Shown: one piece after another, positions 24,421-52,123 of the stretch
Position numbering within the stretch: position 1 is the stretch's first letter
Layout of the letters: every line of letters begins with the position of its first letter
Assembly (NCBI GenBank): GCA_963971225.1
Contig: OZ020270.1
Location: 66,160,932 to 66,224,931, forward strand
DNA length: 64,000 nucleotides
DNA from: Melieria omissa
Lineage: Eukaryota > Arthropoda > Insecta > Diptera > Ulidiidae
Direction: 5' to 3'
Translations under genes and position numbers: made by a program
Notes under the pieces: model-generated
The model's input: the letters and a program-made list of their open reading frames with translations, nothing else
Databases searched by the model: none
What the model was told of the DNA's origin: nothing

Positions 24421-26260
24421 TGGATAATGAAAATTTCAACAATTGGGTTTTTTTAACAAATGAGTCAGTTAATCCAGAGTTGCAATTAATTTCAAGTGGG
24501 ACAAGTTCGACTCAACCTATAGCGGAACCAGTGGACGAGGATGAACAAAAACTTATAAAACTGCTGAAGGAATTCAATTTGGAATGCATCTTTAAATACT
24601 TGAAGGGTAAGTGTAATTTCTTAAAAAGATGTTATTACGATAACTTAAGTCTTATATTAGCTGCACATGTTTCGTTCAAATGTTTGCAATACATGCAAAA
24701 GGAGGATCTCAAGGAAGCAGTTCCTCCATTAGGGCTCCGCATTGAGTTTCGCGAAAAACTATTTGCATGGAAAAAGAGAGAGGTATAATCGGAACATGGT
24801 AAAGTTGTTAATTTCAGAAAATATTATTAACAAAACGTGTTTAAAGTTCGGTATTGACGATGATACAATTTCGATGCAATCAAAAGTCGGAGACTGGTTA
24901 AGGAACGTTGAAACTCCAATAAGCTCGTCCTCCGAATCATCGCCAAAAAGCTTTTCATATTGCGGAAGATTTCTAAAAGAGGTACCTACATATTTCAATA
25001 TTATAATTAAGTATTTTATTATCGCAGACTTTCGACATTTAAAAGGGCTTAAATGGTTTATTTTTAGAAACTACAAAAGGAAAAGCAATTTTGGACTTTT
25101 ACAAACAAAATCAAAGCTTGACAAGTGCTTTAAGGGATGACATAATTAACATTATTGTAGAAGCAATCATTTTTAATAATGTAGCTCTTAAAGAGCAGGA
25201 CTTTCCAGCTTTAGTTAATGACATTTGTTCAATTTTTTCAAGAGAAGTTGGTGCTCAGGTAATTTCGAAAAGTCTTTGCTATATTTTGATTTCAAAATTT
25301 GCCCAAGATTTATATTTTACATTTGTATTTTTTTACTTTCTTCTCATAGGATTACTATTTCATACCAAGGAAAGGGAGAAACAATCCAAGCGGAAAGTTG
25401 TACTCAAAATACAAAAACAAGAAAACCCAGAAACGCAAACTAGAGTCTTCAATCCACAACATTAGCACCTTGGGAGGAGAAATCTCTGCTACACAAAAAA
25501 ATAAAATACAAAAAACTGACATTCCGCTCTCTACTCAGCAAACACAAACCTCAGAAATTGACGAGTCGGTTGCTGCGGCATTAAAAACAGCTCTAAACAG
25601 AGACTGTGCCGGTTGGAATGAAGTTTGCGATCGATGGAGAAAAACGTTTAACATGCGGAAAAGAGATTTAAAAGAACTAGGAAGTACCGAATTTCTTCAA
25701 TCTTGGTCAAAATTAGCAGATGCACGAGGTCCAGACTTGGTAAAACTGAATAACAGCATCCTATCCGAATAGTACCAAATGTGAATAGTGAATATTTTTT
25801 AAAGTTTGCTTAAACATTTTTAGATCAAAATCGGCTTTGATATAATGTACCCCGCGAAGCAACATTTGCTACTATCAAAATGGGAAACATCCAAAAAGAA
25901 AATACAGATGTATTACGAAATAAATACTCATAACGATTATTGCAGACAATTGTTGTCCGGAGCTAAATCGTCAACAAATAAAGGTAAAATGAAAAATTTA
26001 GAGATTATAGTCAAATAATTTTAAACTAATTTTTTACGCTTTATTTTCGTTCTTTAGATGCACAAGATTATATATACAGCGTACTACTGAATGCAGTAAT
26101 ACCTTCCTCGGCAAGATTTTGCAACACGAACGGCAAGCGCAGCAAAAAGGCAACTATAGTTGACGCACAGGAAAGCTTCATTTTACATTTGGCATCCATC
26201 AACGATTGCAAAAAGCAAATTGACAGTATTGTTACCAAATATTATTCTGCTGGATTAACA
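24421..26260 (+). pseudogene. SAM-domain companion gene of the KDZ-like element, 5' part
   Basis: The ATG at 24421 opens MDNENFNNWVFLTNES. With a small intron removed (donor GGGTAAGTG at about 24606, acceptor TATTAG at about 24659) the protein gives a SAM-like domain: EFNLECIFKYLK ... FKCLQYMQKEDLKEAVPPLG ... LRIEFREKLFAWKK. Further exons are bounded by AGAG|GTATAA, TTTCAG|AAAA, AGAG|GTACCT, TTTTTAG|AAAC, CTCAG|GTAATT and CATAG|GATT. The last part before the BEL-1 insertion reads YYSAGLTI. SAM domains mediate protein contacts. I know no defined function; the gene could help the transposase or be a captured host gene. Confidence 0.55.
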
Positions 26261-26264
26261 ATAC

Positions 26265-26647
26265 TGTTTAGACCAGATCTCTTTCAATGTCTCCGCTAAA
26301 GCTGCACATATTATAACACCTCTGAGCCTTTTTGTAAGCCGTTAGCAACAAGAGCTTTCGTTCTCTTGTTGCGCGGCAATCCAGGCCTCGGCCTTTTTTC
26401 TTTTCTCTTGCTTCGACACTTGATCTTCCGACGTCAGCGAGGCAGCAGCATAAGTCAAACCCTACAATAAAGAGCATCGTTATCCGAAGACATTGTGTTC
26501 TTTTTTTTCTTCATCCTCTTGCCCGAGGTAACTTCCGACCTGTGTACGTGAGTATCGAGCCATAATATCGGTTGGCTATTTATTGCAATCTTTCTAATTA
26601 TATTTCGTTTTCATTTTTCTTTAACATCGTGCTGACAACTCCCAACA
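26265..26647 (+). repeat. BEL-1 5' LTR
   Basis: It starts TGTTTAGACCAGATC and ends GACAACTCCCAACA. An AATAAA signal lies at about 26466. The LTR is 383 bp and matches the 3' LTR except at one position. Confidence 0.95.
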
Positions 26648-26650
26648 TTT

Positions 26651-26666
26651 TGGTCCTTCGAGCCGG
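26651..26666 (+). other. BEL-1 primer-binding site, tRNA-Tyr-like
   Basis: TGGTCCTTCGAGCCGG starts four bases after the LTR. It is complementary to a tRNA ending CCGGCTCGAAGGACCA, which matches the 3' end of insect tRNA-Tyr as I recall it. BEL-2 shares the first 13 bases. Confidence 0.7.
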
Positions 26667-27695
26667 ATCTTCGTACCTGCACTCCGGATCTTCGTCCACG
26701 CACTTGGGATTTTGTCCATACACTGCTGTTCCGCCTTTACCATACACTGCTGTCTGCACTCCTGCGTTCATCCTCAACATCTTCTGCTATCACAGGTGCG
26801 TTGAACCGATTTCTTTATAGTTGATTTATTGAGCATATTGTGTATACTAGTGTATTTTGTTTTACCGGCTGTAAAGTTCGCGTGTTGATTTAATTTTTCT
26901 AAAAAACAAAAAAAAACCGAAAATCGCGAGTGTAAAAAAAAAAAGGCTTTTCTTATGTGTCGAAAATACATAAGAAAATAGCAACAACGTTTTTGACTAA
27001 ATTTGGTGCAGAATTAATTATATACTTTTAGTTCTCTCAGGTTCCGTTAACGAACCAGCTAGTTATATATATATATATATATACGGTTATATATCTATAC
27101 ATATATACATACATTTACATATCGGTTAACGGAGTCAAACCACCTTTTATATAAAATACCATTTAGCACCGCGCATATCACGCGACGTGCGTTTTCGCGA
27201 CTTTGCTTTTTTTTTCTATTTTCTATTGTACGTGCACATCCGTAGTGCAACAACAACCACTAGTGCATACGTACATAGCTGCCAAGCACTAAAAATTGCT
27301 GGTACGTACATACAAAAGTAAATGCACAAGTAGGCCTTGCGGAAATAAATTTTTTTTGCATTTCGGCATTCGTTTCTGCATTGTGCACCTTCTACTGAGG
27401 TACGAGGTGACACATAAAACTATAAATTTTTGAATTCAATTCTTTGCGTATCCGAAATTATTTGTGCTACCTATTAACTGCATTTACATTTTTGAAGTGC
27501 ATAAGCGGAATATTGTAACGATACATAATAAAGCAAGCGTTGAGTTAATTTTCTATTGTTTTCTTTTTTTTATATCTCGTGTCGCACATTTTTGACTGTT
27601 CTCTTTCACATCTCACCTTTGTTGCGCTAAGGTGAAAAAGTTTGGGCTTCTTCGATTTTACTTTTTTGATTTTGTTTCCTCCTATTCAAATCGAA
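26667..27695 (+). other. BEL-1 leader
   Basis: About 1 kb without a coding frame. It has a pure TA dinucleotide run at 27063-27083, several poly-A and poly-T runs, and a possible splice donor CACAG|GTGCGTTG near 26796. Such long leaders are usual in BEL elements. Confidence 0.5.
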
Positions 27696-30600
27696 ATGTC
27701 GAAACTTGATGATTTCACCCGTGCTTCTGATCGCGTTTTCAAATTTGATATTGCCTTTACGGAAACTCCCTCTAATAGCCATACTAAATTTTCTTTGGAA
27801 ATTCAAAGCTCCGAGCTAAAGGAGTTGTGGGCTACCGTAAAAGCCCAGTATGAAAAGTGTCAAATTCAATTCGAATCACAAACTAAACGAAGTGCTGCAG
27901 ATGATATCGCTGTCGTTGATACGAAATACACCAGCACTTATCGGACTTATGTTTCATGCTTAGCGAAGATTAATGAGAGAATTCATGACTTCGACCTCGC
28001 TTCCTCCGGTCTTCGCCATACTTCTACTCTTGATGGTTCTGCCTTTTCAGAGCCTACTTCATCCCATAATATCTCACTTCCGCCTTGTGATATTGAAGTT
28101 TTTAAAGGTGACTACACGTCTTGGCCAACTTTCCGCGATTTATTTACAGCCATATATATAAGAAACAGTCGGTTGAGTAATGTCGAAAAATTGTATCACC
28201 TCATTCAGAAAACGAGCGGAGAAGCGAGAGAAATAGTTCGAAAGTCCCCTCTTACCAATGAAGGTTTCGAGCTCGCTTGGAATACTTTAAACGAAGTCTT
28301 TAATAATAAACGGATTTTGGTTAATGCTCAAATTAAACTTCTTTTTGACTTACCAGCTCTTTCTTCTGAAACTGGTTCTGGGCTTAAGAATTTGCAACGC
28401 GGCATTAATAATTGTTTGAATTCGCTAAAATTATACGAGGTTAGTACTTCCGATTGGGATCCAATCATTGTTTATATGTGTATGCAGCGTTTACCTCAAC
28501 GCACTATTGCCTTTTGGGAGCAAGGTGTTAAAGACAAATCTGCTCTACCAAAGTGGTGCGAACTTGATGAGTTTCTTACTACGCGATACCGAACTCTCGA
28601 ATGCGTCGATGAGTTAAAGACTTCTACTTCCAACAAATCAAATTCGAATAAGCCGGCATCTAGCGAGATTAGCGGCTCTAAACGATTTACTCATACTTTT
28701 CACGCGAATATGGTTGATTCAAGCTGTGTGCTTTGCAAGCAACCACACATCTTGCGCAATTGCAAACGTTTTCTTAACATGCAAGTTGGCGAGCGGTTTT
28801 CCAGCGTTAAGCGTTTTCAATGTTGTTTAAATTGCCTATCGAAAGGCCATCAGTTAAAGGATTGTAAGAGTGCCTACAATTGTTCCGTGTGTCATCAACG
28901 CCATCACACGTTGTTACATCGCGAATTACCGTCTTCTACGAAGACTCAGTCGGGATTACGTCCCACTAACACCACTTCTACTTCTTCTAGAGTGCCTGCG
29001 TCGTCCGAGTTACGCTCCACCGCGCCAGGATTTCAACCTTCGGGTGCTTCTTCGGGGCTTCGCTCCAATCAGCCTTCTACTTCTTCCGTAGCTCAAACGA
29101 GTGAGCATCATAGCTTCCATCAAAAAATACAGTCCACTACTAATACTTCTTCGAATAGTGATTCTCCGAATCTTGCGTTTCCTCGAAACCAACGTGTACT
29201 TTTAGGCACAGCTCAAATCTATATTTGCCATTTGAATACCAATTATTCTGCTAGGGCTTTAATTGATCCAGGATCAGAAGCATCTTTCATTTCGGATCGC
29301 CTTCGTAAATTGATTAATTTGCCTACGTTTGCTACACAAGCCAGCATATCTGGGGTTAATCAATCGTTTTCTGCAAGCGCTAATCGACTTAGCTCATTTG
29401 TTCTCGGATCACCTACGGATCCAAACGTGAAAATCGAAGCCTTCGCTTTCGTACTTCCGCAAATCACCGGAAATTTGCCATCCTGTACAGTCGATTCAGG
29501 ACTACGTCATAAACTACCGAACCTTAATTGGGCAGACGGAGACTTTTGGAGGACTTCCGCCATAGACGTACTTATCGGCGCCGACTTGTACCCACAGGTG
29601 GTGCTTCATGGACTTCATCGCAAACTACTTGGAAGTCTGACAGCTCAGCAAACCGTTTTCGGATGGACCCTTACTGGCCCCATTCCGGATTCCGAAGTCA
29701 GGTGTTTTACAACGAAGGTGGACATCTCAACGGATTCTAGGTTGGACACACTTCTTTCTCGCTTTTGGGAAATTGAGGAACCCCCTAGGAAAAGGATTCT
29801 ATCGGATGCTGATCAATGGTGTGAGGACAATTACATGGCTACTACTCGGCGGAATGAAGATGGGAGATACATTGTCTCTCTTCCTTTTAAAGTTCATTAT
29901 CCTAACGAATTTTGCTTAGGAGATTCTCGAAATAGTGCTTTACGGCAGTTCCTTCGGAACGAAGCTTCGCTTCTTAAAAAACCTGAATTCAAAGTTATAT
30001 ATGACCAGGTCGTTGACGAATACTTGCAGTTATCGCATATGAAGTTAGTCGGTCCTCCTTCAAATCAGAGTTTGGGCACATATTGTTATCTTCCGCATCA
30101 TGCTGTCATTAAACCAGAAAGTCTTACAACAAAACTTCGTGTTGTTTTTAACGCTTCAAATAAAACTTCCAATGGTAATAGTTTGAATGATGTATTGTAC
30201 GTCGGTCCGGTGCTACAGTCTGACTTAGTTTTACTTCTCCTAAGATGGAGACTTGTTCGATTTGTTTTCAATAGTGATATTCAAAAAATGTATCGACAAA
30301 TTCTTGTCGACCCAAGGCATCGTCCTTTTCAACGCATTCTACATCGCTCTTCTACCGATGTGGAAGTTTCGGATTACGAATTACAAACGGTAACCTTTGG
30401 TGTCAACTGCGCACCATATCTTGCGATTCGCACTCTCCTTCAACTTGCAGCCGATTCTCAAGACACTTATCCCCTTGCCGCACATATACTCCGACGATCC
30501 ATGTATGTTGACGATGTTCTCGCCGGTGCGCATGATTTGCCTTCCGCTATAAAGGCCCGGAATGAACTCATCGACACTTTACATGGTGCTGGATTTTCCT

Positions 30601-33062
30601 TAAGAAAATGGACTTCAAATCGCAAAGAAATTCTAGTGGACCTTCCGAAAGAGCACCTATTAAAGGAAGACTTCTTAAGCTTTGAAGATTCCAGTTCTAC
30701 AAAGGCTTTAGGGGTACGTTGGAACGCTTGTACTGACAATTTCTATTTCAAGGTTCCTGCTATTGAGCGAAAGGATTCGCACACCAAAAGAGAACTTCTC
30801 TCCATGATTGCCAAATTGTTTGACCCTGTAGGATGGCTTGCACCTGTAGTTATTGTTGCTAAAAATTTAATGCAACTGGTCTGGCTTGAGAATATAGGTT
30901 GGGACGATTGTATTTCTAAACCCATTGAACAGAAATGGCAACAGTTTTTAGATGGATATATGGATATAAACCTGATTAAGTTACCGAGATGGGTGAACTA
31001 TTCTTTACAAGATGAAGTTCAAATTCATGCTTTCTCCGATGCTTCCGAGGAAGCATACGGGGCGGCGATTTTCATACGTATCCGTAAATCATCTACTACT
31101 TTCTACTCCCACTTACTTACATCGAAAACAAAAGTAGCTCCTGTCAAAACTGTTTCGTTGCCAAGATTAGAACTATGCGGTGCAGTACTCCTATGTGATA
31201 TTCTCGATTCACTCCTACCCGAACTTGATATTAAAGTCCACGATGTCTTCTGCTGGACTGATTCAACAATTGTTTTGTCATGGCTTCGAAAAACACCATC
31301 TACATGGACTACCTTTGTTGCTAATCGTGTTAGCAAAATTCAAGAGAAACCGTACGCTAGAAATTGGTATCACGTCGATTCAGCTAATAACCCTGCTGAT
31401 TTATGTAGCCGCGGCCTTACTCCCCAGGCCTTAAGTATGAATTCGTTATGGTGGCATGGCCCATCCTGGCTTGTTAAGGATAGGTCCGAGTGGCCTTCTT
31501 CTAGCCCTACTCATCTTGAAACTTCAATCGAAGCAAAAAAGGTTGCAGTACACAACTTGCTGGTAAATGTTGAGGAAGACATTCTCTCTAGATTTTCGTC
31601 ATTTTCGAGAGCTCTTCGAGTGGTCTCATATATGCTTCGGTTCTACTATCGCACTCACCGTCCTGCAGAAAATTCTAAGGGCTATACATCCATAGTGTTG
31701 TCTAACGCAGAACTCCATAATACCAGAAAATTCTTGACAATTCTCTCTCAGAAAACGCACTTTCAATCTGAATATAGTTGTCTTCTAAGTCAAAAGCCAC
31801 TTAATTCTAAGAGCGGCATATTGACTCTAAATCCCTTTTTGGATAAAGAACAAGTTATGCGTATTAATGGTCGCTTAGCTAACGCACCCACTCTTTCCTT
31901 TAGTGAACAGCACCCAATTATCCTTCCGTATGGTTCTCAGTTTTCAAAACTTTTAGTTGCTTTTATACATAAAATCACGCTTCACGGTGGCAATTCACTT
32001 CTACTTCGATTGCTTCGTCAGGAATATTGGATTCCGAAGGCGAAAAATCTTTTTAGCGCTACTATTCATCGATGTAAAACTTGTCTGTTGGATAAGAAAC
32101 GAAAGGCCTCTCAGATCATGGCCGCTTTACCCCCCGAACGGACTACTCTCGGTCGTGTGTTCTCCATTACTGGTGTCGACTTTGCAGGCCCTTTTGACAT
32201 AAAGAATTTTACAGGTAGAGCGTGCCTTATAACGAAAGGTTATGTTTGTATTTTTGTATGTTTCTCTACAAAGGCAATCCATTTGGAGGCAGTCAGTGAT
32301 CTTTCGACACCTGCTTTTCTCGCTGCTTTTATTCGATTCGTTTCTCGTCGTGGTTGCCCAAAAACCATTTTCTCCGATAATGGTACTAACTTTGTCGGTG
32401 CGTCTAAAGCTTTCAAAAAGGATTTTGAAGCATTTCTAAAGCAGTTTCGTGACTCATTTTCCAATCACTTTTCCCATCAGCCTGTTGAATGGAATTTTAT
32501 TCCTGCTGGGTCGCCTCATATGGGTGGCTTATGGGAAGCGGGAGTTAAAAGTTTCAAACTCCATTTTCGTAAAATGGCTCTTCCTCATAAATACACCTTC
32601 GAGGAATTATCAACAGTTTTATCTCGTATTGAAGCGTGTTTAAATTCTCGACCTATTAGTCCTATGTCAGAAAACCCTGCGGATGTATCTGCCTTGACTC
32701 CGGGTCACTTCCTTATTGGGTCTCCACTTCTGGGTCCCCCAGAGCCAGTTATTTCTGATATAAGCGCGAGAAATAGATGGGAAAAAATGAAAGCTTTGGG
32801 TCAACAGATCGCCTTAAGATGGAAAGAAGAGTATCTTAAAGAAATGCATAGGCGATACAAATGGAAATATCCATCGCGCGATCTTGCGGTTGACGATTTA
32901 GTTGTTGTTAGTCAAGAAAATCTTCCCCCTACTTCGTGGCGGTTGGGAAGAATTCTTCGAGTATATCCCGGTAGCGATAAACGCGTCCGCGTCGCCGATA
33001 TTAAAACCGAACGAGGAATAATTACGCGGTCCATTACGAAATTAATCGTCTTATCTGACTAG
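27696..33062 (+). CDS. BEL-1 Gag-Pol polyprotein
   Basis: I choose the ATG at 27696 (MSKLDDFTRAS); an upstream in-frame stretch has only a TTG. The protein of 1,788 residues holds a capsid-like gag (FKGDYTSWPTFRDLF, NEVFNNKRILVNAQIK), three zinc motifs (CVLCKQPHILRNC, CLNCLSKGHQLKDC, CSVCHQRHHTLLH; about 28720-28920), a protease (ALIDPGSEASFIS, near 29263), reverse transcriptase (FNSDIQKMYRQI, MYVDDVLAGA near 30505), RNase H (FSDASEEAYGAAIF) and integrase (ITGVDFAGPFD, FSDNGTNFVGA, GGLWEAGVKSFKLH). All catalytic acidic residues are visible and there is no stop or frameshift. It makes the virus-like particle and enzymes for retrotransposition. Confidence 0.95.
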   Translation: MSKLDDFTRASDRVFKFDIAFTETPSNSHTKFSLEIQSSELKELWATVKAQYEKCQIQFESQTKRSAADDIAVVDTKYTSTYRTYVSCLAKINERIHDFDLASSGLRHTSTLDGSAFSEPTSSHNISLPPCDIEVFKGDYTSWPTFRDLFTAIYIRNSRLSNVEKLYHLIQKTSGEAREIVRKSPLTNEGFELAWNTLNEVFNNKRILVNAQIKLLFDLPALSSETGSGLKNLQRGINNCLNSLKLYEVSTSDWDPIIVYMCMQRLPQRTIAFWEQGVKDKSALPKWCELDEFLTTRYRTLECVDELKTSTSNKSNSNKPASSEISGSKRFTHTFHANMVDSSCVLCKQPHILRNCKRFLNMQVGERFSSVKRFQCCLNCLSKGHQLKDCKSAYNCSVCHQRHHTLLHRELPSSTKTQSGLRPTNTTSTSSRVPASSELRSTAPGFQPSGASSGLRSNQPSTSSVAQTSEHHSFHQKIQSTTNTSSNSDSPNLAFPRNQRVLLGTAQIYICHLNTNYSARALIDPGSEASFISDRLRKLINLPTFATQASISGVNQSFSASANRLSSFVLGSPTDPNVKIEAFAFVLPQITGNLPSCTVDSGLRHKLPNLNWADGDFWRTSAIDVLIGADLYPQVVLHGLHRKLLGSLTAQQTVFGWTLTGPIPDSEVRCFTTKVDISTDSRLDTLLSRFWEIEEPPRKRILSDADQWCEDNYMATTRRNEDGRYIVSLPFKVHYPNEFCLGDSRNSALRQFLRNEASLLKKPEFKVIYDQVVDEYLQLSHMKLVGPPSNQSLGTYCYLPHHAVIKPESLTTKLRVVFNASNKTSNGNSLNDVLYVGPVLQSDLVLLLLRWRLVRFVFNSDIQKMYRQILVDPRHRPFQRILHRSSTDVEVSDYELQTVTFGVNCAPYLAIRTLLQLAADSQDTYPLAAHILRRSMYVDDVLAGAHDLPSAIKARNELIDTLHGAGFSLRKWTSNRKEILVDLPKEHLLKEDFLSFEDSSSTKALGVRWNACTDNFYFKVPAIERKDSHTKRELLSMIAKLFDPVGWLAPVVIVAKNLMQLVWLENIGWDDCISKPIEQKWQQFLDGYMDINLIKLPRWVNYSLQDEVQIHAFSDASEEAYGAAIFIRIRKSSTTFYSHLLTSKTKVAPVKTVSLPRLELCGAVLLCDILDSLLPELDIKVHDVFCWTDSTIVLSWLRKTPSTWTTFVANRVSKIQEKPYARNWYHVDSANNPADLCSRGLTPQALSMNSLWWHGPSWLVKDRSEWPSSSPTHLETSIEAKKVAVHNLLVNVEEDILSRFSSFSRALRVVSYMLRFYYRTHRPAENSKGYTSIVLSNAELHNTRKFLTILSQKTHFQSEYSCLLSQKPLNSKSGILTLNPFLDKEQVMRINGRLANAPTLSFSEQHPIILPYGSQFSKLLVAFIHKITLHGGNSLLLRLLRQEYWIPKAKNLFSATIHRCKTCLLDKKRKASQIMAALPPERTTLGRVFSITGVDFAGPFDIKNFTGRACLITKGYVCIFVCFSTKAIHLEAVSDLSTPAFLAAFIRFVSRRGCPKTIFSDNGTNFVGASKAFKKDFEAFLKQFRDSFSNHFSHQPVEWNFIPAGSPHMGGLWEAGVKSFKLHFRKMALPHKYTFEELSTVLSRIEACLNSRPISPMSENPADVSALTPGHFLIGSPLLGPPEPVISDISARNRWEKMKALGQQIALRWKEEYLKEMHRRYKWKYPSRDLAVDDLVVVSQENLPPTSWRLGRILRVYPGSDKRVRVADIKTERGIITRSITKLIVLSD

Positions 33063-33110
33063 CCCTTCCACCATTTTTTAACAAATTTGTTATCCTAATC
33101 ATAGGTCGCC

Positions 33111-33872
33111 ATGAGTGATAACGCTTCATCGACTCCTCTCGATAACAACAAGAAATGCAGATTATGCCAACGCACTCATCCTCTACGCTTCTGTAAAAAG
33201 TTCCTTTCGATGAACTTAGAAAGGCGATTACGGGCCATATTGTTACATCGTTATTGCTCTAGATGTTTGGCACATTCACACATCGCGAAATACTGCACTA
33301 GCAAGATGGTTTGCAAATATTGTCGGCGTCATCATAATACGCTTCTCCATGCGAATGAACGTCTAATTATTCAACGCGAAGCTCGTCCTTTCGCTACGAG
33401 TGCTTCCGTTCAACGCGTCACCGTCCTTTTTCCGACGGCCTCCGTCTTCATACGCGTCCGTGCCGCCAGCTGTCCTGCTCGAATCCTTATAGATTCTTGC
33501 AACCACACAAGTCGCATCTCGTCGTCAATGGTACGTCAGCTACATCTTCCAGTTTCCAAGGTTGATCTTCATCACTTTTGCCGAGTCACCTTGGTCTCGC
33601 GTCATGATTCATCTCAGCGCATCGACGTGCATGCCAAGATCGAACAAACGCTCGCCTTTAAAACTCCTCTGGAAGACATTGACGGACGAGTAGCGGAACG
33701 TTTTTCGAATTTTCGCCTTGCGGATCCTTACTTTTATCGATCCACCGCCGTCTCGCTCATCCTTGGCTCAGAGATCTACCACAAGATCATCCGATCTGGA
33801 TTAATTTGTAACCCTGGCCAACCTCTGGCACAGGATTCTATTTTTGGATGGGTCCTTTCAGGCCCATGTTAA
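33111..33872 (+). CDS. BEL-1 second ORF: zinc-knuckle/protease-like accessory protein
   Basis: An open frame of 253 codons with its own ATG starts 48 bp after gag-pol, where an env gene would sit. It has no signal peptide or membrane segment. It repeats the zinc-knuckle and protease segment of the same element: CRLCQRTHPLRFC, CSRCLAHSHIAKYC and CKYCRRHHNTLLH match the three gag motifs in spacing. RILIDSCNHTS stands at the protease site (DSC where gag-pol has DPG). It ends at DSIFGWVLSGPC, matching the last protease segment before RT. Codon use is more GC-rich than in gag-pol. Whether the protease works is open; BEL/Pao proteases vary at this triplet. A sequence resembling a 3' splice site (ATCATAG at 33098-33104) lies just before the ATG. 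Function unknown. Confidence 0.8.
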   Translation: MSDNASSTPLDNNKKCRLCQRTHPLRFCKKFLSMNLERRLRAILLHRYCSRCLAHSHIAKYCTSKMVCKYCRRHHNTLLHANERLIIQREARPFATSASVQRVTVLFPTASVFIRVRAASCPARILIDSCNHTSRISSSMVRQLHLPVSKVDLHHFCRVTLVSRHDSSQRIDVHAKIEQTLAFKTPLEDIDGRVAERFSNFRLADPYFYRSTAVSLILGSEIYHKIIRSGLICNPGQPLAQDSIFGWVLSGPC

Positions 33873-34102
33873 CACACCTTTTATATGGATCCTTTTTGAT
33901 CCTGATTTTAGAAAATTACTTACAATCAAACATTTATAATTTGAAATGCTCAATGAATTAACTCTTATATCGGTTATCAACGCCTAGTTATTAAGTTAAT
34001 ATGTATGAATTTGAAATTGAACTGAAATGTATTCCATCAACGAATTATTATTTCTTGTTTTTCGTAATTTTGCAGCGCGAGACACTGCAAGAGTGGCGGC
34101 AA
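33873..34102 (+). other. BEL-1 3' untranslated region and polypurine tract
   Basis: AT-rich and non-coding. The purine-rich AAGAGTGGCGGCAA directly before the 3' LTR at 34103 is a plausible polypurine tract for plus-strand priming. Confidence 0.55.
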
Positions 34103-34485
34103 TGTTTAGACCAGATCTCTTTCAATGTCTCCGCTAAAGCTGCACATATTATAACACCTCTGAGCCTTTTTGTAAGCCGTTAGCAACAAGAGCTTTCGTT
34201 CTCTTGTTGCGCGGCAATCCAGGCCTCGGCCTTTTTTCTTTTCTCTTGCTTCGACACTTGATCTTCCGACGTCAGCGAGGCAGCAGCATAAGTCAAACCC
34301 TACAATAAAGAGCATCGTTATCCGAAGACATTGTGTTCTTTTTTTTCTTCATCCTCTTGCCCGTGGTAACTTCCGACCTGTGTACGTGAGTATCGAGCCA
34401 TAATATCGGTTGGCTATTTATTGCAATCTTTCTAATTATATTTCGTTTTCATTTTTCTTTAACATCGTGCTGACAACTCCCAACA
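34103..34485 (+). repeat. BEL-1 3' LTR
   Basis: A 383-bp copy of the 5' LTR, followed by the AATAC target duplication at 34486-34490. Confidence 0.95.
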
Positions 34486-34755
34486 AATACAACCATTCAT
34501 TATAGTGAGGGTATATCCGACACGGACATAAAGGGTTTTTACATTTTTTTTGATAATACTTTATATAAGTTCAACTCGTTTCTTGAGAGTTTAGACACGT
34601 GCTTTAAAATTGTTCAAGTTCTTTCTTTAAAATATCCACAAGCTTGTCAATTGTCTTGGGTTTTCATTCAGCAATTGTTTTTTGAAATCAATACCTGTTT
34701 TGATGCTAAATCGGCAAATATTACCAAACTGATTGATTACATAAAAAGCAATTAG
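34486..34755 (+). pseudogene. SAM-domain companion gene, 3' part after BEL-1
   Basis: The sequence continues the gene broken at 26264 and, after one register change, reads KFNSFLESLDTCFKIVQVL and SLKYPQACQLSWVFIQQLF, ending at a stop just before the KDZ transposase ATG. The continuity across BEL-1 supports one gene. The interruption by 8.2 kb and the register change make it a pseudogene here. Confidence 0.5.
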
Positions 34756-37958: not shown

Positions 37959-39880
37959 ATGGAAGCACAAGGTGCTGCCGCCGCATCACAGCCAGTAGAT
38001 AGGACGGATGCAATCCTGGCTAATTTTGCGTCCATCCAGCAGGCAATTCAGGAGTTCAGAGAGGAGTCGGCGCGCAGTCGCACCGAGTTGCAGGAGCTGC
38101 GCGGCCGACTCGAACTCGTCACTACAACCGTGTCCAATCAGGCGTCACATAACGGGCCGCCACACGAACCGCCATTTTCGACGCCGCAGTCAGTGTCTCA
38201 ACTGCCGCCGAGACCGTTACCGGCGCCGGCGCCGTACGTAGAAGACGCCGCCGTACGACTGTACCCGTTGCCGCAGTTCAACGGCAAGCCGGAAGACTGG
38301 CCGTTATTTATCGCAAACTATCGCGATTCGACGAACGAGTGCGGCTACAACAACAAGCAGAATTTAATACGCCTACATAAAGCATTGCAGGGAGAATTTA
38401 ATTTTAATTTAATTTTAATTTAATTTAATTTTTTAGTTCAATTTTTCCAGATGATATTCCGAAGGCCATCGATGAACTGTATTTTAACTTCGGAAGGCCG
38501 GAATCGTTGGTGCGCTCGCAGCTGGAAAAGATTTGGTCATTCCAAATGATTTACGGGAGCCGGCTGGAGTAGGTGTTGACCTTTGCGAACCATTTAAGAA
38601 ACATCGTGGCGCTATTTAAGTCAGCGGGCTGCCAACATCAGCTAGTCAATTTTAGCCTCCTCGAGCAGCTAGTCGTGAAGTTGCCGCCATCGAAACAATA
38701 CGACTGGTCGAAGTATGCGGCTAGCATTCTACCATACCCGACGGTGGAACATCTGGCGGACTGGGTTGGTGAACTCGCCAGAGTGGTTGGCCTGATGCCG
38801 CGTGCCAGCCAAACACGTTCCAGCAATAACATAAGCCGACAGCCAGTCCCAACGACATCCGGGCGCAGAGTGTTACATGCCCAGGAGAATCAGTCAGCCA
38901 GCCCTTCATGTGAGTATTGTCAGAGTGACCAATGGCTCGCCCGCCGGTTTCCTGCTGCCAGCAGCAAGGAGAAGTGGGACACAATCAAGCGTCATCGTCT
39001 TTGCTTTGCGTGTTTGAGGAAGGGACACAATTTAGCGAAGTGTAGGAAGCGACAGGCATGTGGGGTAAACAATTGCCAACGTTTGCATCAGCCCGTTCTC
39101 CATGACGATACAAGCGCACACAAGCAGCTGCCTCCTGTTGAGGAGCCAGCGCACGTGCTTAGCTGTCGTCAGCACAGGCAACCAAGGTACCTGTTCAAAA
39201 TCTTGCCAGTGGTGTTGTCCGGTCCTGCTGGAAGACTTGAAGTCTACGCCATGGTAGATGAGGGGTCATCCGTTTCGCTATTGCAAGAGGAGGTCGCCAA
39301 CAAGTTGGGCCTGAAGGGACGCACCATGCCATTGACACTACAGTGGTATGGGCAGGAAAAAACGACGGAAAATTCACGAAAGGTCGCCCTAACACTAAAG
39401 GGTCTTGAGGCAGAATTCGCGTTAAAAAATTTACGCACTGTGCGTCATCTTAATTTGCCTGTTCAGTCGCTGCGCACGGAACTATTCCGTCATTTGAAGT
39501 CACTACCAATTACTGAGTATACAGAAGCCAAACCAGTCCTGTTACTAGGGCTGGACCACAGCTACTTGAGCGTAGGAAACAACATAGTTCAGAACGGGCC
39601 CGACCAGCCAATCGCCGCCGAAACGAAACTGGGTTGGGTGGTCTATGCACCCCTCAGCCATAAAGGTCACACGGAACCAAGGCTTCTTCATGTGACTGAA
39701 GCTCATACGTTGAAACGGCTCAACAAAATAGTTGATGATTTTTTGTCGATCGAAAATTTCGGAGTACACAGCACGAGTGTCATCATGGAGTCCGATAAGG
39801 ACAAACGTGCACGCCACATTCTGGCAAGCACCACAAAGGATGTTGGGCGGCGGTTTGAAGTGGAACTATTGTGGCGCTAG
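37959..39880 (+). pseudogene. Pao-3 gag and protease
   Basis: The ATG at 37959 (MEAQGAAAASQPVD) opens a gag with a coiled-coil-like start and LPQFNGKPEDWPLFIANYRD. At 38396-38445 an array of TTTAATT units interrupts the frame. Coding resumes at about 38450 with DDIPKAIDELYFNFGRPES, then zinc motifs (CEYCQSDQWLARRF, altered; CFACLRKGHNLAKC) and a protease site (AMVDEGSSVSLLQ). The frame ends at a stop at 39880 where RT should begin. The first zinc motif lacks its usual histidine spacing. Confidence 0.8.
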
Positions 39881-42433
39881 GACAAGGTTGAGCTGCCCGA
39901 TAGTTATGCCATGGCCCATCAACGTCTTCATGGTATTGAGGGAAAGATGAGGAAAGACGCTAAATTTGGTGCGGCCTATCAAGCCGAAATGGCCAAATAC
40001 ATCAACGAAGGCTACGCACGGCTACTCTCTCCGGAAGAGGCAGATAAACGGAAACATCCGATATGATATCTTCCGCACTTCGGGGTTGTCAACCCGCATA
40101 AACCACAAAAACTGCGCATTGTGTTTGACGGGGCTGCAAAGGCATCGGATATGTCGCAAAATTCGGCGCTACTTAAAGGGCCAGAACACGCTCAGCCACT
40201 GTTGGCTATAATGCACAAATTTCGACAAGGTCAAATCGCCGTGCGGATATTAAGGAAATGTTTTCGCAGGTCAAAATAAGACCCGCCGACCAAAATGCTC
40301 AGCGTTTTCTGTGGAGAGACGGGAATTCAGAGAAGCCGGTTCGAGTGTACGTTATGACGTCTATGATATTTGGGGCAGCCTGCTCCCCGTGTTGTGGCGA
40401 GTACATCAAAAATTGGAACGCGTCGCAGCTGGCTTCACTAATGCCGGCAGGGGCGAAGGCCGTTATCGAAAAAACGTACGTTGACGACTTGGTCATCAGT
40501 TTCGACAGCGCAGCAGAGGCTGAAACTGTCTCAACTAAAGCCGTAAAAATCAACGCAGCGGCGGGGTTCACTCTGCGAAGATTTGTGTCTAATTGCAAAG
40601 AATTGCAGCTGAAATTAAATGGAGATAGTCAGGTGCAGGCAGACGTCATCAGTATGGAGTATCAGAACTCTACAGATAAGGTATTGGGGTTGTACTGGAA
40701 CTCCAACAGCGACACATTTGGATTTCTGTTCAAATTCCACAAGATTCCCCAGGACGTTCTGGTGGGAAAGCGATCGCCGACCAAAAGAGAGATGCTGGGC
40801 ATCGTTATGTATATCTACGACCCATTTGGATTCCTCGCAAATGTGACACTATTCACGAAGTTACTGGTGCAAGTGACCTGGAAACGGCAGAAGCAATGGT
40901 TCATCTGGTGGAATGAGTTTCAACGTGTCAACATGTTACCGTGTCCCGATGCTATTCGAAAAATTTCCCGATTGCTAACGAAATTCAACTACACGTATTT
41001 GTAGACGCTAGTTCCAAGGCATACGCAGATGCAGCGTATTTGCGCATAACGGCGAACGATCAAGTTGACGTCGCATTTGTCGCCGCTAAAACAATATGCG
41101 CCCCCATTAAAGGCATGACCATTCCAAGGCTTGAGTTGCAGGCTGCAGTATTGGGGAGCCGATTGAGTGCATCAATTAGAAAATGTCACGAGTTCCGCAT
41201 CGATAAAGTCACCTATTGGAGCGATTCCCAGACAGTGTTGCTTTGGGTCCGCTCCAAAACACGCCAGTACAAACAATTTGTTGCCTGCAGAATTGCCGAG
41301 CTGCTAGCAGCTGCAGAACCAGCAGAGTGGCGTTGGATACCAAACGCTTAATGCTGCGGATGAGGCTACGAGGGCGAAACTACCCCTAGACGTTGATTCG
41401 GTTTCCTGTTGGTTAATGGGCCCTACATTCTTGCATCTTGGAGAGGAGCAATGGCCCCAAGAACCTACACAGCTACAGTCAGAACATTGCGGTGACGAGG
41501 AGACGCAATTCGTTCTAATAGCAACGAAGGGTGCGTTTTGTATTGAATTTACGAAATTGTCTTCTTATTTGAAGGTGCTAAGAGTTGTGGCCGGGTGCGG
41601 AGGTTCATCAATAACACAAGGTCTACACTACACGTTCCCTACAAAAGAGAGTTGACATCAGCTGAAATTGGTGCCGCTGAAAAGCTGATATGCCGCCGAT
41701 GTCAAGAGGAAGCATGGTAGTGGCAGCTCTCATATGACAGCTCACTTAGGCCAAGCTAGGCCCATTGTGATAAGAGGAAGCATACGCGGGTGAGATCCGT
41801 TCCATTCAGTCCAATGGGCGGGTGTCGAAATCGAGCAGTTTGTACCCGCTTTCACCATTCCTCGACGATGATGGTTTGCTGAAGCTCCGGGGAAGGATTG
41901 ACGCTGCGTATTGTTTGCCAATCACAGCCCGACAACCGATCATCTTACCGCAACATCATCGAGTTTCTGGGATGATAATGGAGCATTATCATCAAAAACG
42001 TCATCACCAGAACGATTGTCTTATCATTAATGAAATGCGCCAAAAATTCTGGGTCCCTCGGGCTCGCTGAACGATGTCAAGGAAAGGTGTCCTGTTTGTA
42101 TTATGGCCAGGGCTCGACCTTCCACGCTGTTGATGGGCCAGTTGCCATCGGATCGTTTGACGCCATTCGTCCGTCCGTTCACATATGCTGGTGTGGATTA
42201 CTGTGCTCCTTTCTCGGTGGCTGTCGGACGCCGGCGGGAAAAGCGCTGGATAGCACTCTTCACGTGCTTAACAACGCGAGCCGTTCATTTGGAAATTGCC
42301 GATGAACTCTCAACAAGTGCGTTTCTACTTTGCTTTCGAAACTTCATGAACCGGCGTGGTACGCCGGCACGTATACGTAGCGACAACGGCACGAATTTTG
42401 TTGGTGCACAAAAAGAGCTAACTAAGGAAAACC
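39881..42433 (+). pseudogene. Pao-3 reverse transcriptase, RNase H and integrase N-terminal part
   Basis: Broken frames show RT pieces (KLRIVFDGAAKAS in register-shifted form, YVDDLVISF at 40480, LGLYWNSNSDTFGF), RNase H (HVFVDASSKAYADAAYL, TIPRLELQAAVLGSRL), and integrase (VDYCAPFSVAV, LTTRAVHLEIADELSTSAF, RSDNGTNFVGAQ). At least five stops or frameshifts occur, including one caused by the 56-bp insertion at 41716. LOA-like copy A interrupts the integrase at 42434. Confidence 0.8.
41716..41771. mobile_element. 56-bp insertion with 12-bp target duplication
   Basis: AAGAGGAAGCAT occurs at 41704-41715 and 41772-41783. The 56 bp between start GGTAGTGGCAGCTCTC and end GCCCATTGTGAT. Removing insert and one repeat restores the Pao-3 integrase frame. 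The size fits an extreme 5' truncation of a LINE or SINE without a poly-A tail; the family is unknown. Confidence 0.7.
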
Positions 42434-42688
42434 GTGGGGATCAGGGTTTGGATCCACAAGGCAAAGCACCTGACTGCACGGATGTAGACGTGGTCCACAT
42501 CTTCGGCTGCGATCCTTGTGGGTACCAGGCCAAGTGGACTCAACGCCTTCACGAAGGTTGCTTCTGGTGACCGGGCGGTCCCCGGGCGGCTGTTGAAGCT
42601 TGTCTTCTCAGCTGGCGAAGTTTGAGATGCGGAAATCCAGGAGCGTCTGACCCACAGTGGGCGGCTCCCTGGTCAGCGTCTGATCTCC

Positions 42689-43790
42689 ATGTTAGGAGCG
42701 GCTGTTTTCTTATCATCTTTTGGTGGCGTGATAGATGTCAAAGAAACGCCACAGGGGAAGGCGACCCCCTTCATCAAAACCATTCTGGAGGGCTGCAATA
42801 AGGACTCTTTTACGGTGCAGGGAGTCGGATCCCCAGTACCGGCGGTAGACAGTGGGCGAGCGGGCTGTCTGGCGTCGTTATCCAATGACCGCTTAGGCTG
42901 CGCAGCGGGACCCCGGGCTGCGCGGTCTACTAACGCTACTGGGAAGCAGGAGGCGCCCAAACCTGCCTTATGCAGGCAAGGAGCGCAGGACACCACCGCT
43001 CAGGCCAGTCCCTCAATTTCCGGGGTGGTGCCTCAGTTTCAGGGTCTTCGGCTCGACGTTGCTATAGAAGAGGGATCGACGATTCTCTCGCAAAATAGCG
43101 GCGTCGAGTCTGCTGACTCTGACATGGAGGCGGCACTCCTAGAGGAGACGGACGAACCTGCGGCCACCGGTTCCACTCCTGGAACGTCCTTGGCGGGGGA
43201 AAGTAAGGCGAGCAGTGCTGTGAAAAAAGCCAGAAATGGCTACCGGCGCTCACTTGCTTTCCTTCGCAAAGTGAACAAAGGTTCAGTACCCTTGTGGACC
43301 GGAGCGATCCCGATGGGAAAATTCGTCCGGAAAACTGGCTCTCTGTTGAGGCGCGCATTCTGCGAGCGATGCTCGGGGCGGCGGACGACGAGATCGACTT
43401 CGACGGCGCTGGCTGGCAGAGGGGCGTAAAGATCGTCGGTTGTGGCAACAGGCAGTCACTTGACTTCCTGGTGCGCACGATCGGCGGTCTTGAGCCTCTC
43501 TGGCAGGGGGCAAAACTCGAGGTTTTACCTCGCGACCGATTGCCTCTCCGACCTATCGTAACACTGTGGGTCCCCCCTTCAGTCATGGAGGATGCCGACA
43601 CGTTGAAGCTGATAGGTCGGCAGAACAGCGGCCTTAACACTGGAGAGTGGAGAGTAATTTCCTCCACTACTAGCAAAAACGAGACGGGTAAGGACCTCGT
43701 GGTCGCTGTTGACCAACCGTCCTTTAGTCATCTACGAGACTCCTCTGGTATTGTCAAGTTCGGTTTGGGTTCCTTGAAAGCTATAATCAA
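42689..43790 (+). pseudogene. LOA-like copy A ORF1 (DUF4780-like)
   Basis: An ATG at 42689 opens a low-complexity N-terminal region (KARNGYRRSLAFLRKVNKG at about 43210-43270). After a register change near 43290 it reads LRAMLGAADDEIDFDGAGW, QRGVKIVGCGNRQSLDFL, RPIVTLWVPPSVMEDADTLK and LNTGEWRVISSTTS, then DLVVAVDQPSF and IVKFGLG. This resembles DUF4780, a domain found in ORF1 of LOA-type LINEs. The frame then runs straight into the RT palm because the intervening ORF2 start is deleted. Confidence 0.72.
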
Positions 43791-45640
43791 CGCACTTAGA
43801 AAGTTCGAAGTTCATGAGAAGGTGGTAAAGTGGACCAGTGACATGCTCAGTAGCAGAAGGGTCCACTCTAACCTATGCCTGTGCTCAGTGAGGAAACTTA
43901 CTACAAGGGGCACACCACAAGGGGGTGTTCTTTCGCCTCTGCTGTGGCTCCTTGTAGTAAATAGCATCCTCGACATCTTCGAAACCAGGAGGCTACGAGT
44001 AGTAGCATATGCAGACGACGTCACTATCCTGATGCCTGGAAGATTCCTGTCCACAATCAGTGATCTCATGGAGTCTGCTCTAAAGGAACTTTCCAGGTGG
44101 GCAGAGCTTAACGGTCTAGGGGTTAATCCCTCTAAGACTGTTTTGGTACTGTTCACCCGGAAATACAAAATACCGAAGTTTGAGCTGCCTAAACTTGGCG
44201 GCACTACTCTCACCCTATCACCCGAGGCTAAATACCTTGGCACCATACTTGACTCCAAGCTCTCTTGGGGGCGCAATGTGGAAGAGCGGGTGAAAAAGAG
44301 CCTGAATGCTTTTTACATTTGTAAAAGGACTTTCGGAAAAAAGTGGGGATTGCAGCCGACTATCGTTCATTGGATGTACACTGCGATTATACGGCCGATC
44401 CTAAGTTACGGAGCCATTGCCTGTAGCCGGCCACCAAGACCCTGGTAACGAAACTGACGAAGGTGCAGAGACAAGCGGCTATGGGAATAGCAGGCACTGT
44501 CAAAAGCACCCCCCAGGCCGGGCTGGAGGTGATCTTGCACCTCCACCCGATTGAGCAGTTCATTAAGTGTTGCGCTGCTAAAGGCGCTCTTAGATTGAGG
44601 GAAGCCAACTTGTGGAGGCAACACGCTTATGGGCACACTGGAATTCTAAAGTCTTTCGCGAAGCCGGATATCGGTTATCAGGTGGATTCCTGCACGGACT
44701 ATCTGATCCCATAACTGGATTTCGACACGCGAGCACTAGCCTCATGTCCCACAAGGGAGGAATGGGAGGTGACAGGTGCGATGAGAGACGCTTCTATCAC
44801 CGTTTTCACCGACGGCTCCAAAATGGAGGAAGGTACTGGAGCTGGTCTCTACTCCGATGTACTGCAGACACGCATGTCATTCAGACTGCCGGACCTCTGC
44901 AGTATTTTCCAAGCAGAGATCTATGCAATTTGGAAGGCTGCCGAACTTATCCGTGACAGTGGGTTACCACCCACAGATGTCACAATTTTCGTGGAGAGTC
45001 AGGCGGCGCTTAGGGCGCTGGAATCAGTTATTGTGAAATCAAAGGTAGTGCAGAGGTGTCGTACCGCACTTCAAGGCATTGGGCACCACCAGGTCACTCT
45101 CTGTTGGGTTCCGGGCCACTCAGGAGTGGCAGGGAACGAAGCAGCGGACGAGATGGCAAGAAAAGGGGTGGCTTTGTCTGCCACCGAAGTGGATACCTTT
45201 GTGTTTCCTCCGATATCTGCCCTGTACATGTATATTGACAGGTTGACCAAAAAGGAAATTGAGTCGTCATGGCGTACCAGGACCGACTGCGCACCTGCCG
45301 GGCACTGTGGCCCTCCCTCTCTTTGACGAAAACACGATTCGTACTGTCCCTGAGTCGTACCTCTATTCGACAGCTCGTTGGAGTCATCACCGGACACTGC
45401 GCTATTGGATCTATGCTTACCAAATGGCGCCTCTCGTCCGGTGATGTCTGCCGTAGCTGTGGAGATGAAGAAGAAGTAGAAACGATACAACACTTCCTGT
45501 GCCACTGCCCGGCTCTGCAGGAACGCCGCCTCCGCACCTTGGGGTCAAGGTTCCTGAGAGACCTGGCTTGCGCAGCGAAAGTCGAAATCTCGAATCTGCT
45601 CTCCTTCATTAAGAGGTCGAACTGGTTTCCCCTTGACTGA
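43791..45640 (+). pseudogene. LOA-like copy A reverse transcriptase and RNase H
   Basis: RT begins inside the palm (INALRKFEVHEKVVKWTSDM), then has RGTPQGGVLSPLLWLL, VVAYADDVTILMPG (44010) and AKYLGTILDSKLSW. After a stop near 44448 and a register change the RNase H follows (SITVFTDGSKMEEGTGAG, FQAEIYAIWKAAELI, VTLCWVPGHSGVAGNEAADE) and then the zinc motif CRSCGDEEEVETIQHFLCHC. RNase H after RT is a trait of the I/LOA/R1 assemblage. The copy is inactive. Confidence 0.87.
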
Positions 45641-48597: not shown

Positions 48598-51027
48598 ATG
48601 CCTGTTGAGCGATCCCCTAAACGCCAACTTGTCACAATGGAGACTCCTTCCTCCAGATACACAAAGTCACCCAGTGCACGTTTGACAGTTCCTGTCACTC
48701 GGGAGCCACCCAACACACGCTCCAAACTTACTACCCCCAAAGCAACCGATCCCAGTGTTGCAAAATTCATTTTCGAGTCCGATAGACTCGTGCAATTATG
48801 CACAAAATTTTCATCAGTTCCCGTTGAGGATTTGACCAAATCCCTGGTCCAAATTAAGCAAAAAAATTTGCAAACCCAATGGGAGAGGCTTATGTGCGCA
48901 CATGAGGCAGTCTTCATTGCTGAAGACAACAGCCAGCCCGACGGTTTCAAAGAGTCGGCTAGGCAAAAAATCCACGCCTGCACAGACCAGTATGAGTTGT
49001 GCATGGCTCAGATGTCGGACATCATTGAGATGCTCCAAATTCAGTCCCCCCAGCCCGCTGCGCATATGGAACCGGTTCGACCCCTAGAACCAGCAAATAC
49101 CCCTTACATTTGTTTACAAGTTCCACCTTGCGATACCGAAACATTTTTCGGGGGCTATGAGCAGTGGCCGTCCTTTCGGGACATGTTTACGGCGGTTTAC
49201 ATCAACCACCCCCAGCTCACTCCAGCCCAAAAGTTGTATCACCTCCGATACAAGACGCAAGGTAAAGCCGGTGCTATTGTAAAGCAATATGCATTAACCG
49301 ATGAGAATTTCGGACTCGCGTGGGAAGCCCTAAGATCCCGCTTTGAAAATAAACGCATACTCATTGATTCACAAATTAGATCCCTCCTAAATATCGCTCC
49401 TGCCCACACTGAAGATAGTGAGGCACTTCAGCGGATCCAAAACACAATAAACAATTGTCTGTCTGTTCTCAATACTCAGGCCGTAGACACTGACAATTGG
49501 GATCCGCTATTGGTTTACATATGTTGTACCAAATTGCCCCAAGAGACACTCGCTCTATGGGAGCAATCACTGACATCCCGGAAGGATCTGCCACCCTGGT
49601 CGCAAATGGATGAGTTCCTGACCGGCAGATATGAGGTACTTGAACGGCTTCAAAGTATTCGCCCTCCTAAGCCGAAACCGTCTCAACCTTCGACTTCCAA
49701 TGTCCTCCCAAATCGGCCACACAAATCCCTTAACTATCACACTCAAGTGAAAAGGGACTTCGCGTGCAAACTCTGCAACGCAAATCATCCCATACGGACT
49801 TGCCAGAACTTCAAAGGACTCACCCCCCAGAGTCGATTAAAATACGTTCAGAAGCACAATCTCTGCGTAAATTGTCTTGCTACCTCGCATCTCACTAAAG
49901 ATTGTACAAGCAATTTTACGTGCGTATATTGCCAAAAGAAGCACCATTCTATGCTTCATTTCCCTAAAGGCAATGCGCAACCCTCTCATACTCCTAACTG
50001 GTCACATTCGACCACTCCACAGGTCGCAACAGCTCCAAAACGATCGCATAACAATTCCGTTACTCATTCCCCCCTTTCGGATGCCCAACCCCGCACATCT
50101 TCCAGGCAAAGTACGCCCAAAGTACAAGCCCTACACTCTAATAATGGCACCCAATCCCTTCTGCCTACGGCACTGGTGTCTATCGAGCACGCAGGAATGT
50201 TGTTTAAAGTTCGAGCGTTGATCGACCAAGCCTCTCAGCGTACCTTCATTTCCTCGAAGGTCCAGAAACGCCTCAAATTGCCAATCGAGAAAACTCCCTT
50301 CCAAATCTCGGGCATGGGCGGTCAGATTGTGCAAAATGCCAATCATACATGCTTCTTTACATTGGCAGTCCCCCAATCGAGCACGAAACTCCCCGTGCAA
50401 GCAATCGTGCTCCAAGAGCTTACGAATTCGCTCCCATCTTCCCACATAAACGCTCCCAATATGAAACATTTCGCCATGCTAGAACTCGCTGATCCAAATC
50501 CCTTCGAGACAGCGCAGATTGATATAGTGATTGGCAGTGATCTCATCCCGCAGATCATGCTCGAAGGTATCCACCGGAATGTATGTGGCAGCTTACTTGC
50601 TCAGCATACAGTATTCGGTTGGGTATTAAGCGGTCCAGTACCCCCTTCTTCGCATTTGACATGTGCCCTAAAGGAAGCTCTTTCACAAGTGATTGCCGCC
50701 CTCAATCCCGCAGGGTTTTCACCTCAGGAAATAATGGAAAATCACTTCGAGCCCACCACTCCTGCCAACTCATACTCAAACCGGCAAATTTCCCCCTTCG
50801 TTGCCAAACGTTTCGGCCCCGCAGGATGGCTTTCGCCTCGAATGAGGTCCCCCAAAAGGGTTCGACAACAACGGCCCACATTCACAGCAACTGACGGAAA
50901 TTGCATTCCCTGGCAGTTCCTCATTGCACCAACTCCAACCCGGGTCCAAAAAGAGGACAGTCGCCACTCCAGTGCGAGATGCTCCAAGAGCTGCAAATCC
51001 CGCAGACGTCGGACTGATCGGGTATAG
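48598..51027 (+). pseudogene. BEL-2 gag-protease with truncated pol
   Basis: The ATG at 48598 (MPVERSPKRQL) opens an 809-codon frame: gag (FFGGYEQWPSFRDMFTAVYI, RFENKRILIDSQIRSLL), three zinc motifs (CKLCNANHPIRTC, CVNCLATSHLTKDC, CVYCQKKHHSMLH), and a protease with ALIDQASQRTFIS and FGWVLSGPVP. After about residue 720 it jumps to a KRFGPAGWLSP segment that belongs after the RT, so the polymerase is deleted. It then runs out of frame and stops at 51027. Gag and protease look complete. Confidence 0.88.
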
Positions 51028-51587: not shown

Positions 51588-51827
51588 TGGCTAAATGAGT
51601 GCTGTGATTGTTCAATGATCTGTCGATCCCACCTCTAATCCCTTCCTTTCCTTTTCCTTTTGTGCTCATATTTCCCCCTATTTTCTGCTCCCCGGCTTCG
51701 GCCGTTTGTCTCGTTCAATGTTTCATGTATTCTTTTGTACATTCGTGTTTTTACCTTGCGAATAAACACCACGCACACTCGTAACACCCGCGTTTTCTTT
51801 CACCGCTCCGCCGAAGCGATATTTTCA
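51588..51827 (+). repeat. BEL-2 3' LTR
   Basis: 240-bp copy of the 5' LTR, followed by the CCTCC target duplication. Confidence 0.93.
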
Positions 51828-52123
51828 CCTCCGATTAGTGAGTCGCCCGTTGGCCTTAGCGTCGTGAAAAGGTCCCTAGGGACCTATAATGCATTGTATA
51901 GCATTCTGCTTCATAGGGTGTTTTTTTTTAATTTGATTTACGTAGGAAGGTTGGAATCTTCGAAAGAAACTGCCTTGTCCGTACAAGATAGCCTGCACGA
52001 TTCACTGGCAGTGAAAAGCTACCAGCGCCTACGTACTAAACCAACCTCCCTGGTATCCTCCTCCTGTGAGACCCTGCGGCACCACCTGATCAGGTATTCC
52101 TTCGCAGGGCAGGCTTTGGTCAG

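Follow-up and report, generated by a model that had tools for sequence, protein, structure and literature searches.

A stand-alone gene of zinc knuckles and a protease-like domain in a BEL retrotransposon lineage of flies

A 64,000-nucleotide stretch of the genome of the ulidiid fly Melieria omissa (contig OZ020270.1, positions 66,160,932 to 66,224,931, forward strand; hereafter the window) contains a BEL retrotransposon with a second open reading frame (ORF), ORF2, downstream of its gag-pol gene. Sequence comparisons identify ORF2 as an accessory gene of long standing in a fly BEL retrotransposon lineage. Accessory genes of long terminal repeat (LTR) elements are a known kind, but the make-up of this one, three zinc knuckles joined to a retropepsin-like domain, is unusual. 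ORF2 is under purifying selection and is almost certainly a conserved functional gene. We infer that its likeliest role is that of an RNA-binding regulator of the particle or of its maturation.

A DNA search of the genome with ORF2 returned 40 matches (the best 40 of 133 candidates), which comprise 13 type A copies at 99-100% identity, the window's included, and 27 type B copies at 96-97%. The ORF2 frame runs uninterrupted from its ATG to its stop in all 30 of the copies fetched, the window's among them, and LTR sequence is found downstream of it in each (partial in L015) and upstream in 16 of the 20 fetched 5' pieces. The last 483 pol codons are open in 19 of these 30 copies, a contrast with ORF2 that is biased because the copies were picked by ORF2 similarity. 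A protein-level search of the genome gave 152 matches (best 150 of 2691 candidates scored). Counted by hand among the matches listed, 82 of 84 whole-ORF matches (residues 1-253) are stop-free, that is, 76 of 78 A or B copies and all six copies of a third type, C, whose ORF2 is 76-78% identical to that of the window. With the zinc-knuckle and protease segment of gag as query, 126 matches were listed (best 124 of 3357 candidates scored), and for 84 of the 90 that cover residues 1 to 321 or 322 an ORF2 lies 3-9 kb downstream on the same strand. In 69 gag matches the spacing is 4.30-4.48 kb, and it is 4.40 kb in the window. The six gag matches without ORF2 in that interval are C1:96196730, C4:18047247, C6:13470, C3:38501068, C4:77289900 and C4:66025850; in three of the six, ORF2 sequence occurs farther downstream, beyond 9 kb, and at C4:66025850 ORF2 pieces are found 10.6 kb away.

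The ratio of nonsynonymous to synonymous substitution (dN/dS) was estimated for five A or B copies against the single readable C copy (L081), with two transition weights. At dS of 0.59-0.73 and dN of 0.118-0.128, dN/dS is 0.165-0.217, with a bootstrap 95% interval of 0.147-0.306 for the window copy. Between types A and B, separated by only 26-27 changes, ORF2 gives 0.29-0.61 over seven pairs. The corresponding ratio is 0.175-0.207 for the gag zinc-protease segment in six copies, and 0.14-0.22 for the last part of pol in three indel-free pairs. At the larger distance ORF2 is thus about as constrained as gag-pol at the smaller one, the gag-pol figures being from A-B comparisons only. An earlier note, made from the letters of the window, had proposed selection on this frame, and ratios so far below 1 bear that out. 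Natural selection has kept ORF2 intact, and ORF2 thus probably serves the element in some way.

The same note had left room for a chance tandem fragment unique to this copy, and a chance or decaying remnant without function could draw on the A-B ratio that reaches 0.61 in one pair. Moreover, as the window copy is young, its openness alone would prove little. Other copies nonetheless carry an open ORF2 linked to gag, the ratio against type C is low at substantial dS, and relatives occur in other flies, so that ORF2 is not a chance fragment of one copy and a functionless remnant is scarcely credible.

The element itself spans 26265 to 34485 and is a young BEL copy. Its LTRs are identical at 382 of 383 positions, with ends TGTT...AACA, and are flanked by a 5-bp target-site duplication, AATAC. 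Besides these paired repeats, membership in BEL/Pao is indicated by the DUF1759 match of gag-pol in Pfam (E 4.8e-25), and many relatives of this gag-pol bear the BEL-type domains PF03564, PF05380 and PF18701. The near-identical LTRs, the 253-codon frame after gag-pol and the higher GC content of ORF2 (47.4% vs 42.0% for gag-pol) are all as first described. ORF2 begins 48 nt past the gag-pol stop and lies between gag-pol and the 3' LTR. Features are given below in window coordinates.

26260..26264, no strand: 5' target-site duplication AATAC, its right copy at 34486-34490, read from the sequence display
26265..26647, forward strand: 5' LTR, 383 bp, with a single mismatch to the 3' LTR
26651..26668, forward strand: putative primer-binding site TGGTCCTTCGAGCCGGAT, directly 3' of the 5' LTR
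27696..33062, forward strand: gag-pol ORF, 1788 aa, open in the window copy, DUF1759 by Pfam
28716..29681, forward strand: zinc-knuckle/protease segment of gag-pol, the homologue of ORF2, with D-P-G at the active site and a flap
33111..33872, forward strand: ORF2, accessory gene, 253 aa, ATG to stop
33156..33350, forward strand: three zinc motifs of ORF2 (C-x2-C-x3-H-x4-C, C-x2-C-x4-H-x4-C, C-x2-C-x3-H-x4-H), residues 16-80
33423..33869, forward strand: retropepsin-like domain of ORF2, residues 105-253, D-S-C at residues 128-130, no flap, ending FGWVLSGPC-stop
33873..34102, forward strand: non-coding tail between ORF2 and the 3' LTR
34103..34485, forward strand: 3' LTR, 383 bp

Kinship of ORF2 with gag-pol

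ORF2 aligns along almost its entire length with the gag-pol of its own element, from gag-pol residue 341 to FGW-L-GP, with 75 of 240 aligned residues identical (31%) and a score of 220 against a maximum of 60 among 500 shuffles. The earlier note had recognized this match, from the first zinc motif through FGWVLSGP, together with the identical spacing of the zinc motifs, which indeed align without gaps, and the absence of envelope features; the highest 19-residue hydropathy mean in ORF2 is 1.32 and no transmembrane-like stretch is present. Eleven of the 12 zinc residues are invariant across 14 aligned ORF2 members, and the twelfth is found in all except the truncated P0014. The zinc segment of the window ORF2 has a net charge of +14, and zinc segments are basic in all 13 ORF2s (P0014 left out). 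RNA binding by these zinc knuckles is plausible. No Pfam family scores above cut-off for any of the 14 members, the window ORF2 reaching only sub-threshold matches to RVP_2 (E 0.007) and 3HBD (E 0.02), and a PDB sequence search with ORF2 returned nothing better than E 0.025.

The earlier note had likened ORF2 to Ty1 p22, and copy-number control of that kind, in which a Gag-derived fragment would poison particle assembly, accords with the kinship of ORF2 to Gag-Pol and with the fact that the element encodes it. The Ty1 p22/p18 protein is likewise a Gag-related product made separately by its element, and its p18m form, a capsid C-terminal domain fragment with the same sequence as Gag, disturbs assembly (PMC8458377, in part). 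ORF2 differs as a separate, diverged gene: Pfam finds no DUF1759 or capsid match in it, and its homology to gag-pol begins only at the zinc motifs. With no capsid domain in ORF2, Ty1 p22 serves poorly as a model, and control of this kind is very unlikely.

A sequence search and a profile search, against 5.8 billion proteins, yielded 12 near-complete stand-alone relatives of 275-426 aa, 34-47% identical to ORF2 (BLASTP), plus one fragment. Proteins of Eurosta solidaginis, Calliphora vicina and Musca autumnalis are among them, so that relatives of ORF2 do occur in other flies. No relative named as Drosophila appeared among the matches listed, a weak negative as most matches carry no species name; the same database yielded many Drosophila gag-pols for the gag segment. 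Two scans of viral contigs with ORF2 alignments revealed no relative. Within M. omissa, two open frames (322 and 337 aa, respectively, at C2:6708033-6708800 and C3:51230303-51231061) are 31-34% identical to ORF2s and, on that likeness, may be further stand-alone ORF2 types.

Trees of the zinc-protease region have long branches and midpoint roots only. The main tree holds 67 of 87 full gag-pol segments plus that of the window, 20 near-duplicate or very distant rows having been dropped by hand; two further trees hold 54 and 60 rows, and P0014 was left out of all. The 13 ORF2s fall on one side of a branch with support of 100, opposite 68 gag-pols (41 in the smaller tree). A recent duplication of the element's own gag-pol was considered as the source of ORF2, and a tree grouping the two is rejected by the approximately unbiased (AU) test (p 1.2e-7). 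The description of ORF2 as a duplicate of its own zinc-knuckle/protease segment in the earlier note thus holds as to homology with that segment, but not as to recent duplication.

A second BEL element in the window, at 48598-51024, contributes an 809-aa gag (DUF1759; DUF1758 below cut-off). The zinc-protease part of this gag is closer to ORF2 by BLAST than that of ORF2's own gag-pol. When ORF2 is constrained to group with it the p value is 0.446, and an origin there is neither established nor rejected.

ORF2s and all fly-core gag-pols lie together on one side of a branch (support 85), and a tree in which ORF2s group only with gag-pols of the ORF2-bearing fly groups has p 0.12. The gag-pol of the window groups with those of Rhagoletis, Eurosta, Calliphora, Musca and Haematobia with support of 94 in the 60-row tree, a grouping that the main tree does not resolve. 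These fly groups are much the same as those that yielded ORF2, which suggests an ORF2-bearing BEL lineage among flies.

The protease-like domain, expression and proposed function

The predicted fold of ORF2 is retropepsin-like, with Ddi1 and retroviral proteases as its top structure matches. The same 13 alignment columns, identified from sequence as the retropepsin flap, are empty in 13 of 13 ORF2s, and the active site reads D-x-C in 12 of the 13 (D-S-C in the window) rather than the D-[ST]-G of an active retropepsin. With both changes present the protease-like domain is probably inactive, and it is very likely that ORF2 alone performs no proteolysis. The window protein stops two residues past FGWVLSG, and each of the 12 relatives stops four residues past FGW[VI]-SG.

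We give an even chance to the overall explanation that we regard as best, in which ORF2 would regulate its own element in trans through zinc knuckles and a dead protease-like module. The argument rests on basic zinc knuckles joined to a fold of a dimerising type, probably dead as an enzyme, in the same element as the RNA, Gag and protease on which it would act. The retropepsin fold dimerises in retroviral proteases. The basic zinc array would bind the RNA of the element, the protease-like domain would serve as a protein-protein module pairing with the Gag-Pol protease or its precursor, and ORF2 would in this way tune packaging, assembly or proteolytic maturation. That ORF2 acts on the element's own particle or RNA, and not on the host, is somewhat favored. 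In a more specific version, which we consider unlikely, ORF2 is a pseudo-protease that pairs with the Gag-Pol protease in a mixed dimer, half normal and half flapless, with the zinc knuckles as its anchor on RNA. If so, a separate gene would time protease activation, and the D-x-G to D-x-A shift seen in 16 related fly gag-pols would be a co-adaptation to ORF2; the gag-pol of the window still has D-P-G.

ORF2 could instead chaperone RNA or help to package it, as an additional nucleocapsid made apart from Gag-Pol, with its protease-like domain just a stable scaffold. The near-invariant zinc residues are in keeping with this, as is a dN against type C of 0.076 in the zinc motifs vs 0.156 in the protease-like part. 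However, the C-terminal FGW-SG end is conserved as well (dN 0.040 over the last 24 codons) and the protease-like part is therefore not mere filler, which leaves a chaperone rather unlikely.

A host-directed role, for example counter-defence against PIWI-interacting RNA (piRNA) or antiviral RNA-binding proteins, is suggested by four C-type elements in which the gag segment has 93-96% protein identity to that of the window while ORF2 has only 76-78%. ORF2 has thus been exchanged or is evolving separately, and these elements have a mosaic appearance, as if ORF2 or the 3' region had been swapped (examples at C1:36910486-36915638 and C4:78584238-78589400). For L081, one of the remaining two C copies, the gag match is partial, at 90% identity and with two stops; the other has no gag among the matches listed. 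ORF2 as a whole shows constraint and not rapid change, and counter-defence is quite unlikely.

Two candidate splice sites, scored with a rough matrix, bear on expression.

26796..26797, forward strand: strongest 5' splice-donor candidate of the leader, CAG|GTGCGT, ranked first among sites from 26265 to 27760
33103..33104, forward strand: candidate 3' splice acceptor, ATCATAG|G, 6 nt upstream of the ORF2 ATG

Of 20 copies fetched, 15 have the donor 9-mer in identical form (8 of 11 of type A, 7 of 9 of type B), and the acceptor CATAG|GT is present in 30 of 30, the window's included. No ATG occurs from 26400 to 26795, nor between the pol stop and the ORF2 ATG. ORF2 is perhaps translated from a spliced subgenomic RNA joining the candidate donor near 26796 to the candidate acceptor at 33104, and in such a message the ORF2 ATG would come first. 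Translation by reinitiation after pol may be another route.

A spliced message like those of retroviral regulators would also suit a transcription regulator, a nuclear ORF2 that binds element DNA or RNA and alters LTR transcription or RNA export as the regulators of complex retroviruses do. The basic zinc segments of all 13 ORF2s fit such a role, and seven relatives (P0005-P0011) start (residues 1-25) with an acidic aromatic stretch (FFDDDLEDFDELMEL in P0008), followed by low-complexity sequence, that we take to resemble an acidic activation domain. The window ORF2, in contrast, has only 15 residues before its first zinc motif and no acidic stretch, and P0001, P0002 and P0013 likewise lack the stretch; we regard a transcription regulator as improbable.

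Several observations weigh against regulation in trans by an enzyme-dead ORF2, or against parts of it. The zinc array is poorly modelled, with a predicted local distance difference test score (pLDDT) of 46-48 at residues 51-80, and a second structure model, of P0009, is weak (45.5). P0013 retains D-A-G. Loss of the active-site glycine alone does not prove inactivity, because 16 of the 87 gag-pol segments have D-x-A in place of D-x-G, those of Rhagoletis, Eurosta, Musca, Haematobia and one further set (P0028-P0030, P0034, P0040, P0048-P0054, P0056, P0060, P0065 and P0066), and D-x-C occurs in three more distant gag-pols; the flap is retained in the six D-x-A gag-pols aligned for the flap columns. 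Specific pairing with the Gag-Pol protease is a tentative step and a doubtful one. At the small A-B distance ORF2 appears less constrained than the gag zinc-protease segment, and the ORF2s of other species are known as proteins alone, not as parts of BEL elements. Five of the 20 copies (L031, L037, L041, L043 and L049) show no matching splice donor, L037 with a complete leader and the others with a partial one, the acceptor score is moderate (rank 24 of 326 AGs), and expression is predicted from sequence.

Known accessory genes and the rest of the window

BEL/Pao elements (Belpaoviridae) have the same order of domains in the nucleocapsid-protease segment of gag-pol, three zinc motifs and then a retropepsin-like domain ending FGW-L-GP. 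ORF2 differs from that segment in standing alone after pol, in ending just past FGWVLSGP, in its missing flap and D-x-C, and in forming its own clade. The profile by the International Committee on Taxonomy of Viruses lists gag, pol and env-like genes only for BEL/Pao, and describes BEL element replication as poorly understood (PMC8742986). The env-like genes share with ORF2 the position of a third gene after pol (PMC8742986), but ORF2 has no transmembrane-like stretch and is homologous to gag-pol. A survey reports LTR elements with one or two ORFs and env in a small fraction (PMC3118150, in part).

The sORF1 and sORF2 of MDG1-group Gypsy elements are likewise selected accessory ORFs of insect LTR elements, downstream of pol in some Lepidoptera; they differ in being about 110 aa long, sORF2 is a FAST-like membrane protein, and kinship with gag-pol is not described for them in the part of that source consulted (PMC11952523). 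The olive fly BEL-Pao element Achilles resembles the present one in being a BEL element with three Cys motifs (PMC4580426, in part). In the open-licence PubMed Central literature, covered mostly as titles and abstract openings and without Repbase or supplementary files, no such ORF in BEL elements turned up, and the other accessory genes of non-retroviral LTR elements met there comprise env-like genes and small ORFs of membrane or nuclear type. A gene that is old, under selection and drawn from the element's own domain class, with a flapless protease, suggests that BEL elements have a layer of self-regulation, and ORF2 offers a directly testable case of a pseudo-enzyme beside its active relative.

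Other retroelement pieces crowd the window, at 2452-7312, 12505-13863, 38795-44448 and 48598-61381. Of ten ORFs scanned there, nine have matches to reverse transcriptase, RNase H, endonuclease, gag or protease families, with one of these below cut-off.
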